Shown: positions 16,770 through 23,303 of the stretch, one piece after another
Layout of the letters: every line of letters starts with the position of its first letter
Position numbering within the stretch: position 1 is the first letter of the stretch
NCBI GenBank assembly: GCA_016794525.1
Contig: JAEUJY010000120.1
Location: forward strand, 1 to 35,344
Length of the DNA stretch: 35,344 nt
From: Myxococcales bacterium
GTDB taxonomy: Bacteria; Myxococcota_A; Polyangia; Haliangiales; Haliangiaceae
Direction: 5' to 3'
Made by a program: the position numbers and the translations under genes
Notes under the pieces: generated by a model
Seen by the model: the letters and a program-made list of their open reading frames with translations, nothing else
The model's database searches: none
What the model was told of the DNA's origin: nothing

Positions 16770-18701
16770 CTACTCCGCACCCGGGTCGAACTTGGCGTCG
16801 CGCAGACAGGTCTGGCGGATGCCGGTCTTCGCGCCCGAGCTGGCCTTGGCGTAGTACTGCTTGGCCTTCGCCTGGTTCTTGAGCTTGCAGGCCGACAGCG
16901 CGGCGGTGTTGACCGCCTTGTTGGCGACGCCCGGCGGGATGCCCGGCATCTTGAGCGCCTGCTCGGCCAGCTGCAGCGCCCGCGCGTACTGACCGTTCAT
17001 CGCCGCCGAGCTGGCGTCGCTGACGATCTGGGTCGGGTCGCCCGACGGGGGCGGGCTACCGCCGCCGCCGCTGCTGCCGCCACCGTTGCTGCCGCCGCCG
17101 CCACCCGACGGGTTGCTCGCCACGGCCTCGTCGCATTTGACGTCGCGCACCGCGGCGCCGGCGTCGGAGAACACCTTGCCGGCCTCGGTGGCGAGCTTGT
17201 CGAGCTCCTTGCACTTGTGGCTCTTGGCCAGGCTGTTGGCCTGCCGCTTGGTGTCGTTGAGGAACTGCGTGTGCAGCTTGTCGTAGCCGTCGCGCGCGCG
17301 GTTCTTGTAGACCGAGTCGGCGGGGATCTCCTCGAACGCGGCCACCGCGGCCTCGTACTGCTTGCGGCCGGCGGCGGCCGCGAAGTCGCTGTACAGGTTC
17401 GAGTTGGCCAGCTCGCGCTTGGCCTGGTCGGCCAGCGTGCGCGCCTCGGCGTTGCCCGGGTCGAGCTTGAGCACCTGGTTGGCGAGGTTCGAGGCCTCGC
17501 CCCACTTCGACGCGTCGATCGCGGTGCGGGCGTCGGCGAGGAGCTTGCCGGCGTCGCTGGTCACCGCCGGCGCGGCGCCGGTGCCGGGGCCAGGCGGCGG
17601 CTCGACGGCGGTGCCGGGGCCGGGCGGCGGCTCGACGGCGGTGCCGGGACCCGGGGGCGGATCGCCCGAGCCGACGCCGGGATCGGCGGTGCCCGTGCCT
17701 GCCGGGTTGGTCGCGGTGCCGGCGGCGACGCCGGGGTTCTTGTCGGCCGTGCCCTCGCCCGAGCCGCCGACCGCGACCTGCGTGTCCTTCTTGCTGCCGC
17801 CGCCGCCACCGCCGCCAGCCACCACGGCGATCACGCCGCCGACGACCACCAGGCCGAGCAGCGCGAACAGCCAGGTCTTGCTCTTGCCGGTCGGCACGTC
17901 GACGATCTGCGCGTCGCGGCCGAACAGGAAGTCCTCGCCCGGCTCGACGAAGCGGAACCGGACGTGGCCGAGGTCGATCGTGTCGCCGCGGCGCAGCTCG
18001 ACCTTGCCGTAGTCCTCGCCGTTGACCCGCACGCCGTTGCTCGACTGCAGATCCATGATCGTGTAACGGCCGGTGCCCGGCTCGCGGACGATCTTGGCGT
18101 GGTTGCGGCTGATCGAGCGGTGGTTGATCACGACGTCGTTGTCGTCGGTTCGCCCGATCACCATCTCCTGCTTGGTCAGCTGGAACTCGCGGCCGGCGAA
18201 GTTCGACGACAGCACGACGATGCGGGCGTAGCCGCCCGGCGCCGTCATCGCGGCCGGCGCGACCGCCCGGGCCGTGGGATCGGTGTCGGCCAGGCCCAGC
18301 GGCGTCGCCGCGGGCATCGCCGCGCCGGGCATCGCCGCGGCCAGCTGCGCCGGGTCGAGGCGCTCGATCGGCTGGGTGCGCGCGTCCTCGTACGGGACCG
18401 GCTGCTCGACGCCCTCGGCCTTGAGCTCGATGAGGTAGTCGCCGATCTGGACCCGGTCGCTGACCGCCAGCACGGTGCGCTGGGAGATGCGGGTGCCGTT
18501 GACCCGCACGCCGTTGTAGCTACCCAGGTCCTCGATCGCCACCGCCCCGTTGGCCCGGCTGATCCGCGCGTGCTTGCGCGAGACGTTCCGCTCGGTCAGG
18601 CGGATCGTGTTGCCCTCCTTGCGGCCGATCGTGATCTCGTCGCGCACCAGCGGGACGACCGTCGTCTTTCCCTCGTCATCCTGGATCACTAGCTTGAACA
18701 T
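16770..18701 (-). CDS. Double-FHA membrane protein with periplasmic TPR-like domain
   Basis: The protein has 643 residues. FHA domain 1 spans about 2-95 (GR 26-27, SRKH 41-44, NG 63-64) and FHA domain 2 about 158-252 (GR 183-184, SRNH 199-202, SSNG 220-223); both keep the phosphothreonine-binding residues. A membrane helix follows at about 276-296, then a Gly run, a Pro/Gly linker with tandem repeats, and a C-terminal helical TPR-like region (about 390-530 and 570-643) separated by a Gly/Ser linker. The FHA part would be cytoplasmic and the TPR part periplasmic. It reads kinase output, probably of kinases like those at 3-13 kb. It lies 63 bp after ctpA on the same strand; GGAG about 8 bases before the ATG supports the start. 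Confidence 0.9.
   Translation of the reverse strand: MFKLVIQDDEGKTTVVPLVRDEITIGRKEGNTIRLTERNVSRKHARISRANGAVAIEDLGSYNGVRVNGTRISQRTVLAVSDRVQIGDYLIELKAEGVEQPVPYEDARTQPIERLDPAQLAAAMPGAAMPAATPLGLADTDPTARAVAPAAMTAPGGYARIVVLSSNFAGREFQLTKQEMVIGRTDDNDVVINHRSISRNHAKIVREPGTGRYTIMDLQSSNGVRVNGEDYGKVELRRGDTIDLGHVRFRFVEPGEDFLFGRDAQIVDVPTGKSKTWLFALLGLVVVGGVIAVVAGGGGGGGSKKDTQVAVGGSGEGTADKNPGVAAGTATNPAGTGTADPGVGSGDPPPGPGTAVEPPPGPGTAVEPPPGPGTGAAPAVTSDAGKLLADARTAIDASKWGEASNLANQVLKLDPGNAEARTLADQAKRELANSNLYSDFAAAAGRKQYEAAVAAFEEIPADSVYKNRARDGYDKLHTQFLNDTKRQANSLAKSHKCKELDKLATEAGKVFSDAGAAVRDVKCDEAVASNPSGGGGGSNGGGSSGGGGSPPPSGDPTQIVSDASSAAMNGQYARALQLAEQALKMPGIPPGVANKAVNTAALSACKLKNQAKAKQYYAKASSGAKTGIRQTCLRDAKFDPGAE
17581..17660 (-). 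repeat. 30-bp tandem repeat in the FHA protein linker
   Basis: Units at 17581, 17611 and 17641 (the third partly diverged) encode repeated EPPPGPGTAV. The linker is Pro/Gly-rich and periplasmic, so the copies probably set its length. Confidence 0.85.
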
Positions 18702-18764: not shown

Positions 18765-20042
18765 TCACTTGGACCCCAGCCAGCGCTGGGCGGTTTGGTA
18801 GGCGATACGAAGTTGGTAGTCGTCGGCCAGCCTGGCCTCGAGTATCGCACGGTTGCCGGACGGTTGCACCGCCGGGTCGGCCTCGTCGTCACCCGGGTCG
18901 GCGCCGGCCACCACGGTCTCGGCCTCGAACTCCGGAACCTCGATGTCGGGCGTGATCCCGCGCCCCTCGACCTCGTTGCCGGCCGGGGTCAGGTAGCGGT
19001 GCGTCGTGAGCTTCAGGCCCGAGCCGTCGTCCAGGTCGAAGTAGGTCTGGATGACGCCCTTGCCGTAGGTCTTCATGCCCAGCACGGTGGCGCGCCGGTG
19101 GTCCTGCAGCGCGCCGGCCAGGATCTCGGCGGCCGACGCGGTCTCGGCGTTGACCAGCGCGATCACCTTGGCGCCGACCGCCAGGCCGCCGCGGTGGGCC
19201 TTGTGCACCTCGACCGCGGCGGTGCGACCGCGGATCGTGACGATCAGGCCGTCGTCGAGAAACTCGTCGGCCACGGCCATCGCCTGATCGATCAGCCCGC
19301 CGGAGTCGGTGCGCAGGTCGAGCAGGATGACCTCGCCGGCCTTGGCCGCGATCAGCCCGCGCAGCGCGTCGGCGGCGTCGGCGCCGGTGGCCTCCTGGAA
19401 CCGGCGGATCGCCAGGTAGCCGATCCCGGGCGCCATCGGCTCGGCGCTGACCGACGGCACCTTCACCTGCGCGCGCACCAGCTCGAAGCTGCGCGGGGTC
19501 GGCCAGCCCGGCCGCGTGACCTGCACCGTGACCCGCGAGCCGGGGCTGCCGCGCAGCTTCTCGTCCCAGTAGCGCTCGTCCTTGGCGTCGTCGCCGATCG
19601 TCGCGGTGCCGTCGACGGTGACCACCCGATCGTCGACCGCGATGCCGGCGACCGCGGCCGGCGAGCCGGGCACGACCTCGTCGACGATCGGCCACGGCAG
19701 CGCGTGGGGCATGGCGTCGTCGGGGCCGCCCGGGCCCAGCGCCACGCCGACGCCGCCGAACTCGCCGTCGGTGTCCTCGCGCAGCCGGCGGTACTCGGTC
19801 GGCGAGAAGAACGCCGAGTAGGCGTCGAGGCTCTGGACCATGCCGCGGGCGGCGGCGTACAGCAGCTGGCGCTCGGGCACCGGCGTCACGTACTGCTGGT
19901 TCACGTACGACAGCGTCTGCGCGAACGTGTCGAGGCTCTGGTAGCGCACGGCCTCGGCGCGCCGCGGCTTGGCCGCGACGGACACCGCGGCGGCGACCGC
20001 GCAGCCGGCGGCGAAGGCGGCGGCGTGGGTCGCGCGCGACAC
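18765..20042 (-). CDS. ctpA: C-terminal processing peptidase, S41 family
   Basis: The protein has 425 residues. The N-terminus is an export signal or anchor (AAAFAAGCAVAAAVSVAA), followed by the S41 N-terminal helices, a PDZ domain (about 95-190, IVDEVVPGSPAAVAGI) and the protease core. The catalytic triad can be placed by spacing: Ser303 in TASAAEILAG, Lys328 in KTYGKGVIQ, and Gln332. Ser to Lys is 25 residues and Lys to Gln four, as in characterised CtpA/CtpB enzymes, so it should be active. These proteases trim periplasmic and wall-hydrolase-related proteins. The gene starts 43 bp after the envC-like gene, the common ftsEX-envC-ctp order. The GTG start is supported by TACCAT six bases upstream, so it may also be transcribed alone. 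Confidence 0.92.
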   Translation of the reverse strand: MSRATHAAAFAAGCAVAAAVSVAAKPRRAEAVRYQSLDTFAQTLSYVNQQYVTPVPERQLLYAAARGMVQSLDAYSAFFSPTEYRRLREDTDGEFGGVGVALGPGGPDDAMPHALPWPIVDEVVPGSPAAVAGIAVDDRVVTVDGTATIGDDAKDERYWDEKLRGSPGSRVTVQVTRPGWPTPRSFELVRAQVKVPSVSAEPMAPGIGYLAIRRFQEATGADAADALRGLIAAKAGEVILLDLRTDSGGLIDQAMAVADEFLDDGLIVTIRGRTAAVEVHKAHRGGLAVGAKVIALVNAETASAAEILAGALQDHRRATVLGMKTYGKGVIQTYFDLDDGSGLKLTTHRYLTPAGNEVEGRGITPDIEVPEFEAETVVAGADPGDDEADPAVQPSGNRAILEARLADDYQLRIAYQTAQRWLGSK

Positions 20043-20085: not shown

Positions 20086-20856
20086 CTACTTTGCCGGCGA
20101 AAGGTAGCGCTCGGGGTCGACCGGCAGGCCGCCCGGGCCCAGCGGCACCCGGACCTCGAAGTACACGCGGTAGCGCGCCGGCTGGCCGAGGCGCTGGCCG
20201 GCCGCGACGTAGTCGCCGGTCGCGACCGTCAGCTGATCGAGCTTGCCGACGACGGTCCAGACGCCGCCGTGATCGAGCACGACGCCATCGTCGAGCCCGC
20301 GGATCGGCCCGGCGTAGCGCACCAGCCCGTCGGCGGCGGCCACCACCGGCGCGTCGCGCTCGACCTCGAAGTCGACGCCGCGGCGCGACAGCGTGGCCTT
20401 GCTGTCCTCGTGGACCAGCGGGCCGAAGCGGCGGATGATCGCGCCGGCGACGGGGCGGATCAGCCGCAGGTCGGCGGGCGGCTCGGCGGCCCGCGCGCGA
20501 TCGGCGGTGATGCGCGACGCGGCGCTGGTCAGGCTGTCGACCTCGCCGGCGTACATCGCGACCTCGGCGCGGTCGCGCGACAGCAGCCAGCGCGCGGTGG
20601 CGCGGCCGCGGGCCACCGCCATGCGATCGGCGGGCGCGATCGCCAGCGGCTCGCCGGCGGTGCGCAGGAGCTTGTAGGCCAGCCGCACCCGCTGCACGCG
20701 CGCGCGCTGGCTGTCGTGCAGCTTGGTCAGCACCTGATCGCGGGCCCGCGCCACCGACGCCGCCTGCTGATCGAGCTGCTCGCCCAGGGTCGGTCCAGCG
20801 TGGGCGCGGGTGGCCAGCGCCAGCGCGGCGGCGGCGATCAGCGCGGCGCTACGCAT
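20086..20856 (-). CDS. EnvC-like protein with degenerate LytM (M23) domain
   Basis: The protein has 256 residues; E. coli EnvC has about 420. It has a signal peptide ([20 protein letters not shown]), a shortened helical coiled-coil region (about 25-125) and a LytM domain (about 132-254). Zinc ligands of active M23 peptidases are lost: the first His of HxGxD is Arg158 (RRGVD, Asp162 kept), the YAHL His is Lys205 and the LHFE His is Tyr232 (VYFEV). This matches EnvC-type activators, which do not cleave peptidoglycan but switch on amidases when FtsEX changes shape. The start overlaps the ftsX stop by 8 bases, so translation is coupled. Whether an amidase partner exists cannot be seen here. Confidence 0.88.
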
Positions 20857-21709
20857 CGCGGGCCCCGGCCAGCACGCCGCCGGCGAGCCCGATGCCGGCG
20901 CCCAGCGCCAGCACGATGCCCAGCGTCGCCGGCGTCCAGGCCTGGGTCGAGAACAGGCTGCCGAGCTCGGCGGTGGCGGCGAGGCCGCGGCCGATCACCA
21001 GCGCCACCGCGGCGCCGGCGACGCCGAGCCACAGCCCGGCGCCCCAGGTCGGCGCCCGGGTGAACAGCGGGCCGGCGCCGAGCAGGCGCAGCGTCGCGCG
21101 CTCGGCGCGGTCGGCCGCGAGGTGCAGGCGGATCGCGGCGGCGACGGCGATCACGCCGCCCACGCCGACGACGACGAACAGCGCCCACGCCAGCCGCGCC
21201 AGCCGCGCCAGCGCGTCGGCCAGCGGCGCGCTGGCGTCGCGGGTGACCTCGACGTCCTCGATGCCGGCGGTCGCGCGCAGCTCGGCGACGACCGGGCTGG
21301 CGGCGGCGACGTCGGTGGTGCCGGCGGCCAGCGTGATCTCCAGCGAGATCGGCAGGCTGGTCGGCTCGACGCCGTCGAGCAGCTGATCGTGCGCGCCCAG
21401 CGCGACCCGCAGCCGGTCGCTGGCCTCGGTCGAGCTGACCACGGCGACGCCGTCGACGCCGCCGTGGGCGCGCAGCCGCTGGGCCAGCGCGTCGGCCTGC
21501 GCCAGCGTCGCGCCCTCGTCGAGGTAGACCACCATCGACGCCTGGGCCCGGGCCCCGTGCGACCAGGCGGCGACGTCCTGGGCCGCCAGCCGGGTGGCGG
21601 CGACGCCGACCAGCGCGGCCGCGATCGCGGCGATCGCCCACGCCGACGCGCGCCGGTGCTTGCCCACCAGCGCCAGCGAGCGGCGCACGACGCCCCAGAG
21701 CGCGGTCAT
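20849..21709 (-). CDS. ftsX: Cell-division ABC-type permease FtsX
   Basis: The protein has 286 residues. The topology is the FtsX one: a cytoplasmic N-terminus, a first membrane helix ([21 protein letters not shown], about 22-42), a periplasmic domain (about 45-175) with [10 protein letters not shown] and LPISLEITL, then three helices ([18 protein letters not shown]; a second near [16 protein letters not shown]; a last [17 protein letters not shown]). The cytoplasmic loop [20 protein letters not shown] matches the conserved EIEIMKLVGAT-like coupling segment. FtsX transmits FtsE state changes to EnvC-type wall-hydrolase activators. The ATG overlaps the ftsE-like stop as ATGA. It looks intact, in contrast to its partner FtsE. 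Confidence 0.92.
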
Positions 21710-22497
21710 CGGCGGTTCCCGGCCGAGCGGGCCAGCGGGAAGGGCACGACGTTGGGCACGGCGTCGTCGGTCGGCCGCGGGATCTCGGCCTCGACCAGCG
21801 GCGCCGCGTCGATGTCCTCGACGACGATCGTCGCCACGTCGACCAGCCGGTGCTGGTGGATCGTCAGCGTGCGCCAGCCGCGGCGGGCGGCGGCCTCGGC
21901 CAGCGTCGCGTCGCGCGAGGCGACCAGCGCCGCGGCGCCGTCGGCGGCCCGCGCCGCCAGCAGCTCGACGAAGCGGGCCGCGCCGCCCCCGTCCTGGTGG
22001 CTGGTCGGCTGATCGGCGATCACGACGTCCGGATTTCGGACGAACGCGCGGGCCCAGGCGACGCGCTGGCGGGCGGCCATGCCCAGGCCGGCGATCGCCA
22101 GGTCGCCGTCGACGTCGACCTCGGCCAGCGCGGCGTCGGCGCGGCGGCGGGCGTCGCCGGCGCGGACCCCGGCGACCGCGAGGGCCAGCTCGACGTTGGC
22201 GCGGGCGGTGGCGTCGGGCAGGAGCGCGAGGTCCTGCGGCACCACGCCCAGCCGGCGCCGCAGCCGCGTCAGCGACGACGCGCGCAGCTTGCGCAGGCGG
22301 TGGCCGGCGATCGCGACGTCGCCGGTGGCCGGCACCAGGCCGGCGATCATGGCGCACAGCGCCGAGGCGCCGGCGCCGGCAGGCGCGCCGACGATCACCA
22401 CCTCGCCGGCGGCGATCGCCAGCTCGGCGTCGACGAACACCGGCCGGCCGGCGAAGGCCAGGCCGGCGCGACCGAGCGCGATCAGGGGCTCGCTCAT
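21706..22497 (-). CDS. ftsE: FtsE homologue with lost ATPase motifs (candidate pseudo-ATPase)
   Basis: The protein has 263 residues from the ATG at 22497 (longer in-frame starts give non-protein-like sequence). FtsE ancestry is clear from the fold order, from [24 protein letters not shown] (Q-loop Gln88) and from coupling to ftsX. But Walker A is GAPAGAGAS (37-45), with Ala44 in place of Lys; the signature is LGMAARQRV (138-146) in place of LSGGEQQRV; Walker B is DVVIADQP (157-164), with Gln163 for Glu; and the H-loop is ASRD, with Arg195 for His. I rechecked each codon in the DNA. The Walker B Asp162 remains. ATP hydrolysis is unlikely; the protein may act structurally or bind nucleotide weakly. 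A C-terminal extension (about 225-263) is acidic/Pro-rich. Confidence 0.88.
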
Positions 22498-22586: not shown

Positions 22587-23303
22587 GTGCAAGCGCGGAC
22601 GCTGCTCGTCGCGGGGGCCTGGCTGGCGTGCGCCTGCCGCGGCACCTCGCCCGACAAGCGCGTCGACGAGCTCAAGGCCCGCCTGGCCGAGGCCGAGGGC
22701 CGGCTCGAGTCGATCGAGCGCACCGGCACCAAGGTCGACGCGCAGAAGGTCGCGCGCGAGCTGGCGGCGATGGGGCCGTCGAGCGGGCTGGCCGGGCCTG
22801 TCGGGCCGGCGGGGCCGCCGGGCATCGTCGGGCCGCCTGGACCGAACGGTCCGCCCGGCCCGGCAGGCGCCGGTCCCGAGGGGCCGCCGGGGCCGCCGGG
22901 GCCGTCGGGGCCGGTCGGTCCCGAGGGCGCGCAGGGCGTCCAGGGGCTGCAGGGGCCTCAGGGCCTGCAGGGGCCGCAAGGACCGCAGGGCCCGCGCGGG
23001 CCGGCGGGGCCGCCCGGCGCCTACGCCGCCAAGCAAGATCTGTCGCGCCGCGAGGCCCGGGTCTCGGTCGGCGCGGGCCAGGTCGCGTCGGCGGTCGCCG
23101 CCTGCGAGCGCGCCCGCGACCTGGTCATCACCGGCGGCTGCTACGCCGATCCGATGTGGGTCGCCGAGCTGGTGGCGGCGCGCCCGGTCGGCCTCACCGA
23201 CGAGCACGCCGCGTCGAGCTGGCGCTGCGACTACCGCAACACGTCCACCAGCCAGGCCATCGAGATCGTCGCCGAGGTCTACTGCGTCGCGCCGCGCGAG
23301 TAG
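22587..23303 (+). CDS. Secreted collagen-like (Gly-X-Y) protein, probable lipoprotein
   Basis: The protein has 238 residues. The N-terminus [19 protein letters not shown] is a short signal with cysteines at the expected lipobox region (LACAC). A coiled coil follows ([19 protein letters not shown]; about 25-65), then 26 Gly-X-Y triplets (about 68-147) with a single Gly-Ala interruption about nine triplets in; the first part is GPP/GPA-rich and the second GPQ/GLQ-rich. The C-terminal domain has four Cys ([34 protein letters not shown]). Coiled coils usually register collagen trimers, so a trimeric surface stalk is likely. Pro-hydroxylation is not expected in bacteria. The GTG start is supported by TACGAT six bases upstream. 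It is divergent from the ftsE-like gene with only 89 bp between. Confidence 0.88.

Follow-up and report, generated by a model that had tools for sequence, protein, structure and literature searches.

The reverse strand of the window, by which we mean the whole 35,344-nucleotide stretch of Myxococcales contig JAEUJY010000120.1 that was analysed, encodes a catalytically degenerate orthologue of FtsE (21706..22497). The protein scores on none of four catalytic motifs, namely the Walker A Lys, the signature LSGG, the Walker B Glu and the H-loop His, and on the evidence of sequence comparison this loss arose once, in a common ancestor of four genera that belong to a single family. An FtsE of this kind is not expected to bind ATP normally or to hydrolyse it.

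Identity and setting of the gene

The gene had been called FtsE by its position in a sequence-only reading, which described an ATGA overlap with ftsX and an EnvC-like gene next to it, and the conserved gene row and the placement of the protein in a tree bear this identification out. The frame, which runs from 22497 to 21706 on the reverse strand, is open throughout and comprises 263 codons plus a stop. It lies directly upstream of ftsX, and the two genes are indeed ATGA-coupled, with the ftsE stop at 21708-21706 and the ftsX ATG at 21709-21707. Among 149 NCBIfam families, the model TIGR02673 ranks first for the product at 119.6 bits, with DevA (102) and LolD (95) behind it; the score lies below the curated cut-off of 264.85 bits, a strict threshold that was passed in only 7 of 14 control genomes. 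The match to PF00005 reaches 66.6 bits (cut-off 25). With a threshold of E 1e-22, an FtsE orthologue was recovered from 24 of the 30 genomes of the window's family. The window protein nests among the FtsE of its class in a tree built from 98 FtsE sequences, and it occupies the same locus as its canonical relatives. By descent and by locus, the window gene is a true FtsE orthologue.

The ftsX gene (20849..21709, reverse strand; 286 aa) yields a PF18075 match of 46.7 bits (cut-off 23.5) and encodes the only FtsX_ECD protein in the genome; no genome of the family has more than one. Its coupling helix is kept, as is the pattern E...LLGA...P in nearly all cases. Overlapping ftsX is the EnvC-like gene (20086..20856, reverse strand), present as had been claimed, the product of which contains a short coiled coil and a degenerate LytM (M23) domain (52.1 bits). 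On inspection this LytM domain is without zinc-ligand motifs, as in the E. coli activator (PMC11627006). The stretch between the YKL motif and LytM was compared in eight sequences, and it spans 85-89 residues within the order and 109-156 residues in families f6, f10 and f15. The shorter form occurs throughout the order (window 20086-20856, reverse strand, and loci L147, L151-L154, L161 and L164), including at loci with intact FtsE. Because the stretch is short whether FtsE is intact or not, it may be that the restraint on EnvC was reduced before FtsE lost catalysis.

Next after envC in the gene row is a CtpA-type S41 protease (18765..20042, reverse strand), and the conserved row ends with a double-FHA, TPR-containing protein (16770..18701, reverse strand) that resembles FhaB/FipA-type FHA domains and is conserved in position. 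The divergent neighbour of ftsE encodes a collagen GXX-repeat protein, predicted to be lipoprotein-like, with a coiled-coil-like N-terminus (22587-23303, forward strand; PF01391, 46.8 bits). This gene adjoins ftsE in most relatives, including ones with intact FtsE (L164) or with loss of the H-loop only (L151). The full row, consisting of the divergent collagen-like gene, ftsE, ftsX, envC, ctp and the FHA gene, recurs with degenerate and intact FtsE alike; with intact FtsE it is fullest in f15, and f4 shows the portion from ftsE to FHA. The genome as a whole, which is G+C-rich and measures 9.8 Mb, also encodes one Amidase_3 protein (254 aa) and FtsA (490 bits), and NCBIfam matches include an MXAN_5808-type peptidase.

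Catalytic residues in the window and across the family

Counting from Met1 of MSEPLIAL, and with all codons on the reverse strand, the Walker A Lys is replaced by Ala44 (22366..22368), the signature LSGGE by LGMAA (138-142; 22072..22086), the Walker B catalytic Glu by Gln163 (22009..22011) and the H-loop His by Arg195 (21913..21915). These four replacements had been read from the window earlier, and all are present as claimed within an uninterrupted frame of 263 aa. Two further losses had been missed: Gln168 takes the place of the D-loop Leu (21994..21996), and the A-loop aromatic, which is Y or F in 59 of 61 canonical FtsE, is gone from 20 of 21 degenerate FtsE, the window protein apparently being the one that keeps Phe. 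The claim that every ATP-hydrolysis motif has been lost goes slightly too far, since the Q-loop Gln88 (22234..22236), the Walker B aspartate Asp162 (22012..22014) and the D-loop Asp169 are present in all 21 degenerate proteins. Nor have the catalytic motifs moved within the protein, as none was found displaced elsewhere in an alignment with 20 orthologues and E. coli FtsE.

For the wider comparison, FtsE was sampled from 97 genomes of the class, being identified either by adjacency to an FtsX_ECD gene or through direct orthology, and aligned together with E. coli FtsE (98 sequences). None of the four motifs is found in any of the 21 orthologues from genera g1, g4, g5 and g6, all of one family, whereas each of the 61 canonical relatives, drawn from about 20 families, has all four, as does E. 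coli. The Walker A Lys, invariant in the 61, is A, T, S or G in the degenerate clade; the second Gly of the signature is lost in 21/21; and the Walker B Glu position holds Q in 9 proteins (the window's included) and H in 12. Arg195 and Gln168 are fixed in all 21, against His in 61/61 and Leu in all canonical relatives, respectively. The 21 sequences form one clade in the tree (SH-aLRT 99), so that the loss does follow a clade, a question that the sequence-only reading had raised. Its judgement that the replacements are not a sequencing error is likewise upheld: the same four sites have been lost in each of 21 separately assembled genomes, which rules out assembly or sequencing error, or chance. 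Searched at E 1e-55 against 377 genomes of the phylum outside the family, a profile of the degenerate clade gave no match except the f2g8 relative, which retains both the Lys and the Glu. The P-loop was also inspected for a Lys or Arg that might compensate; g5 mostly has Arg two positions past the lost Lys (GTSR), but no such residue occurs in g1, and the clade therefore lacks a general replacement. From these substitutions, we infer an absence of ATPase activity in the degenerate FtsE.

Within the family, the FtsE search missed 6 of 30 genomes (G001, G003, G008, G012, G021 and G029). In G012, a member of genus g7, FtsX was found later, with a partly degenerate FtsE beside it. FtsX_ECD went undetected in 6 of the 30, several of which are fragmented, and in G018 FtsE is present with no FtsX_ECD match. 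Neither FtsX_ECD nor an FtsE orthologue was detected in G008, an assembly that is 96% complete in 20 contigs, and full loss of FtsEX is possible in this member of the family.

Partial decay, conservation and fold

Less extensive losses are found among other relatives. In genus g2 of the window's family (three genomes) and in f2g8 of the same order, the Walker A Lys, the Walker B Glu and the signature Ser/Gly are kept and the H-loop His is replaced by Asn; having lost only the H-loop, g2 and g8 are intermediates for tracing the passage from ABC ATPase to scaffold. In f7, the Q-loop Gln and H-loop His are lost, the catalytic Glu is lost in part and the Walker A Lys is kept, and the g7 protein of G012 has kept Lys, has Asp for Glu and has no His. 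Because f7 and g7 show partial losses of their own, catalytic decay of FtsE, as read from the alignment, seems to have occurred more than once in the class and to be most complete in the window's clade. Families f17, f2, f1 and f7, all without the H-loop His, form one tree clade with a support of 91, although the database classifies f7 and f17 outside the order and some of the branches are long, so that attraction is possible in this grouping. Locus by locus, separate partial decay was observed in f7 (L155, L187, L190-L197), f17 (L166) and f1g7 (L228): the H-loop His is lost in all of these, the Q-loop Gln in f7 and f17, Glu has become Asp in some, and the Walker A Lys is kept. In f11 (L200, L201), the four scored motifs are present and Glu replaces the Q-loop Gln (HETD).

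In close pairs of the degenerate clade, dN/dS for ftsE is 0.26-0.33. Where both genes were measurable, ftsX gives 0.22-0.30 in four of five pairs and 0.44 in the fifth, and ctp gives 0.25; in more distant pairs, for which extreme G+C makes synonymous counts unreliable, the values climb to 0.5 and above for most of these genes alike. By the close-pair estimates, degenerate ftsE is under purifying selection, like the neighbouring ftsX. The distribution of conservation along the protein has also shifted relative to canonical FtsE, being lower at Walker A, the signature and Walker B and higher at residues 66-113, a segment that comprises the Q-loop and coupling stretch and that we take to include the region meeting the coupling helix in ABC proteins. 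Together with the kept coupling helix of FtsX, this pattern is the one expected if ATP chemistry had been freed from selection and FtsX binding had not.

An AlphaFold2 model of the FtsE monomer, built on a 28-sequence alignment, has a mean pLDDT of 84.3 and a well-ordered NBD. The top two solved structures in Foldseek are the FtsEX entries 8ymc and 8hd0 (8ymc_A at E 6.5e-20, TMt 0.90), and VIA-align returns a Z of 28.5 for both 8hd0_A (rmsd 1.6, 214 aligned) and 8ymc_A (rmsd 1.9, 219 aligned). As modelled, the ABC NBD fold of the window FtsE is intact; LolD, FtsE and MJ0796 chains fall within one unit of one another (Z 28.5-29.0), and so the fold by itself does not single out FtsE.

Beyond the NBD lies a linker that is predicted to be disordered (pLDDT <50 at 225-262), followed by the short C-terminal motif NVVPFP (249-254; 21736..21753, reverse strand). 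The general form N[VIL][VIL]xFP, of which one variant begins with A, occurs after a variable tail in every one of the 20 degenerate FtsE that are complete, in all three f1g2 proteins, in f2g8 and in one of two from f4, and nowhere else in the class sample. The motif is order-specific and is present also beside intact catalysis; judged by this distribution it predates the catalytic loss, and it is a candidate docking peptide.

Possible roles of an FtsE without catalytic residues

The FtsEX-EnvC systems of E. coli, P. aeruginosa and V. cholerae (8hd0, 8ymc, 8i6r, 8tzj) share with the window the ftsE-ftsX order, an EnvC-type activator and the NBD fold, and their Q-loop, coupling face and single FtsX are found in the window genome as well. 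In contrast to FtsE of those systems, the window protein is without the Walker A Lys, catalytic Glu, H-loop His, signature and D-loop Leu, and it adds a disordered C-terminal tail carrying NVVPFP. K41, D162 and E163 of FtsE are highly conserved across species (PMC11139282). In E. coli, septal wall synthesis is held to require ATP hydrolysis by FtsE, and the amidases are activated through ATP binding, while regulation of the cycle is described as an open question (PMC12505981). The laboratory mutations D162N and E163Q of E. coli FtsE remove hydrolysis and retain the complex, as is proposed for the window FtsE; however, these mutants are thought to be ATP-locked, and D162N blocks septation, whereas in the window's clade the residues for ATP binding have disappeared as well, a state that is fixed across four genera. 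In heterodimeric ABC exporters, the degenerate site still binds ATP. Such sites have likewise lost the catalytic Glu or signature residues (PMC7756269), but there only one of two sites is degenerate, whereas one FtsE and one FtsX in the window genome would place the losses in both sites of a presumed homodimer. No description of a natural ATPase-dead FtsE was found in the literature searched, which omits most subscription papers, and its novelty is provisional.

The most economical interpretation suggests that the family kept the recruiting role of FtsEX and dropped the energy-driven one. We consider it fairly probable that the pseudo-ATPase FtsE is a constitutive structural adaptor holding FtsX-EnvC at the septum, and we infer from the preceding comparisons both this role and a gating without ATP, with control by docking. 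An FtsE dimer would clamp the FtsX coupling helices through its kept FtsX-gripping face, FtsX would hold the EnvC-like activator, and the assembled FtsEX-EnvC would recruit or activate the amidase at the septum through placement rather than ATP cycling. Positional control would probably come from partners: FtsA, FtsZ or a binder of the C-terminal NVVPFP peptide. Orthology, the single-clade losses, purifying selection and the retention of the FtsX coupling helix, EnvC, amidase and FtsA all argue for an adaptor. A more specific proposal, in which a complete FtsEX-EnvC-amidase pathway operates without an ATP cycle and FtsE is a permanent clamp that has the docking of its C-terminal peptide onto the divisome as its only gate, is offered tentatively, as something that could be so but is rather doubtful in this exact form.

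Work in other bacteria bears on the adaptor in both directions. In E. coli, FtsEX recruits EnvC with no need of ATP hydrolysis, and an FtsEX ATPase mutant still supports cell separation in part as long as the NlpD pathway is available (PMC7343993); for V. cholerae, nucleotide-independent activation of AmiB is reported, as cited in PMC11139282. Recruitment of EnvC without hydrolysis offers a simpler possibility than the options put forward in the sequence-only reading, which called for another source of energy or control, such as phosphorylation or a second intact FtsE. Counting against an adaptor, septal wall synthesis fails in the E. coli ATPase mutant, a block exerted through FtsA (PMC7343993); FtsA is present here, so the divisome would have to tolerate a non-cycling FtsEX. 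Moreover, E. coli AmiB is activated far better by ATP-bound FtsEX than by FtsX-EnvC alone (PMC11139282), and a complex without ATP may accordingly be weak.

Conceivably, FtsE could bind ATP through non-canonical contacts and serve as an ATP-binding switch or sensor that does not hydrolyse, but this seems unlikely. Gln at the Walker B Glu position in 9 of 21 proteins, the window's among them, is reminiscent of the E. coli E163Q substitution that traps the ATP-bound state (PMC11139282), and Gln88 and Asp162 are retained, yet the other 12 proteins carry His at that position. The Walker A Lys, signature Gly and H-loop His are also gone, together with the P-loop Thr in most and the A-loop aromatic in 20 of 21, and no compensating Lys lies nearby.

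That ftsE is a decaying relic, drifting after the family lost the role of FtsEX, is improbable to a greater degree. Such drift would fit the family genomes, several of them fragmented, in which FtsX_ECD was undetected, and the slightly lower conservation of FtsE than of FtsX in close g1 pairs (an intact f4 pair shows the reverse, with FtsE at 64% and FtsX at 53%). However, it sits poorly with a frame that is open in 21/21 genomes, with close-pair dN/dS of about 0.3, with the fixation of the new residues R195 and Q168 and with a Q-loop and coupling stretch more conserved than in canonical FtsE. We give the same low standing to control of the FtsEX complex by phosphorylation and the neighbouring FHA protein in place of ATP. 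The double-FHA gene does hold a conserved position at the end of the row, but it also accompanies intact FtsE in f4 and f15, and so it did not arrive with the loss and is no specific replacement for the ATPase; no conserved Thr or Ser site was identified either.

The second intact FtsE that had been envisaged did not materialise: no FtsE-model match in the genome passed the cut-off, and the eight best of the other matches obtain better scores from the models for MacB, LolD, DevA or other exporters. Least probable of all is that another intact ABC ATPase encoded elsewhere pairs with FtsX, replacing or joining the dead FtsE, for although 78 genome stretches match the FtsE model, those exporter-like scores, the lone FtsX_ECD protein, the permease of its own that adjoins L004 (the one of the eight whose neighbourhood was inspected) and the coupling surface retained by the dead FtsE all speak against it.

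With the adaptor as the preferred reading, FtsEX-EnvC control of wall splitting in this family probably runs without an ATP cycle, and an FtsE annotation is no guarantee of ATPase activity. Where FtsEX-EnvC is kept but the catalytic residues are not, recruitment by FtsEX is set apart from its energy-driven role, and a pathway free of the ATP cycle would, if true, represent a natural uncoupling of the two.
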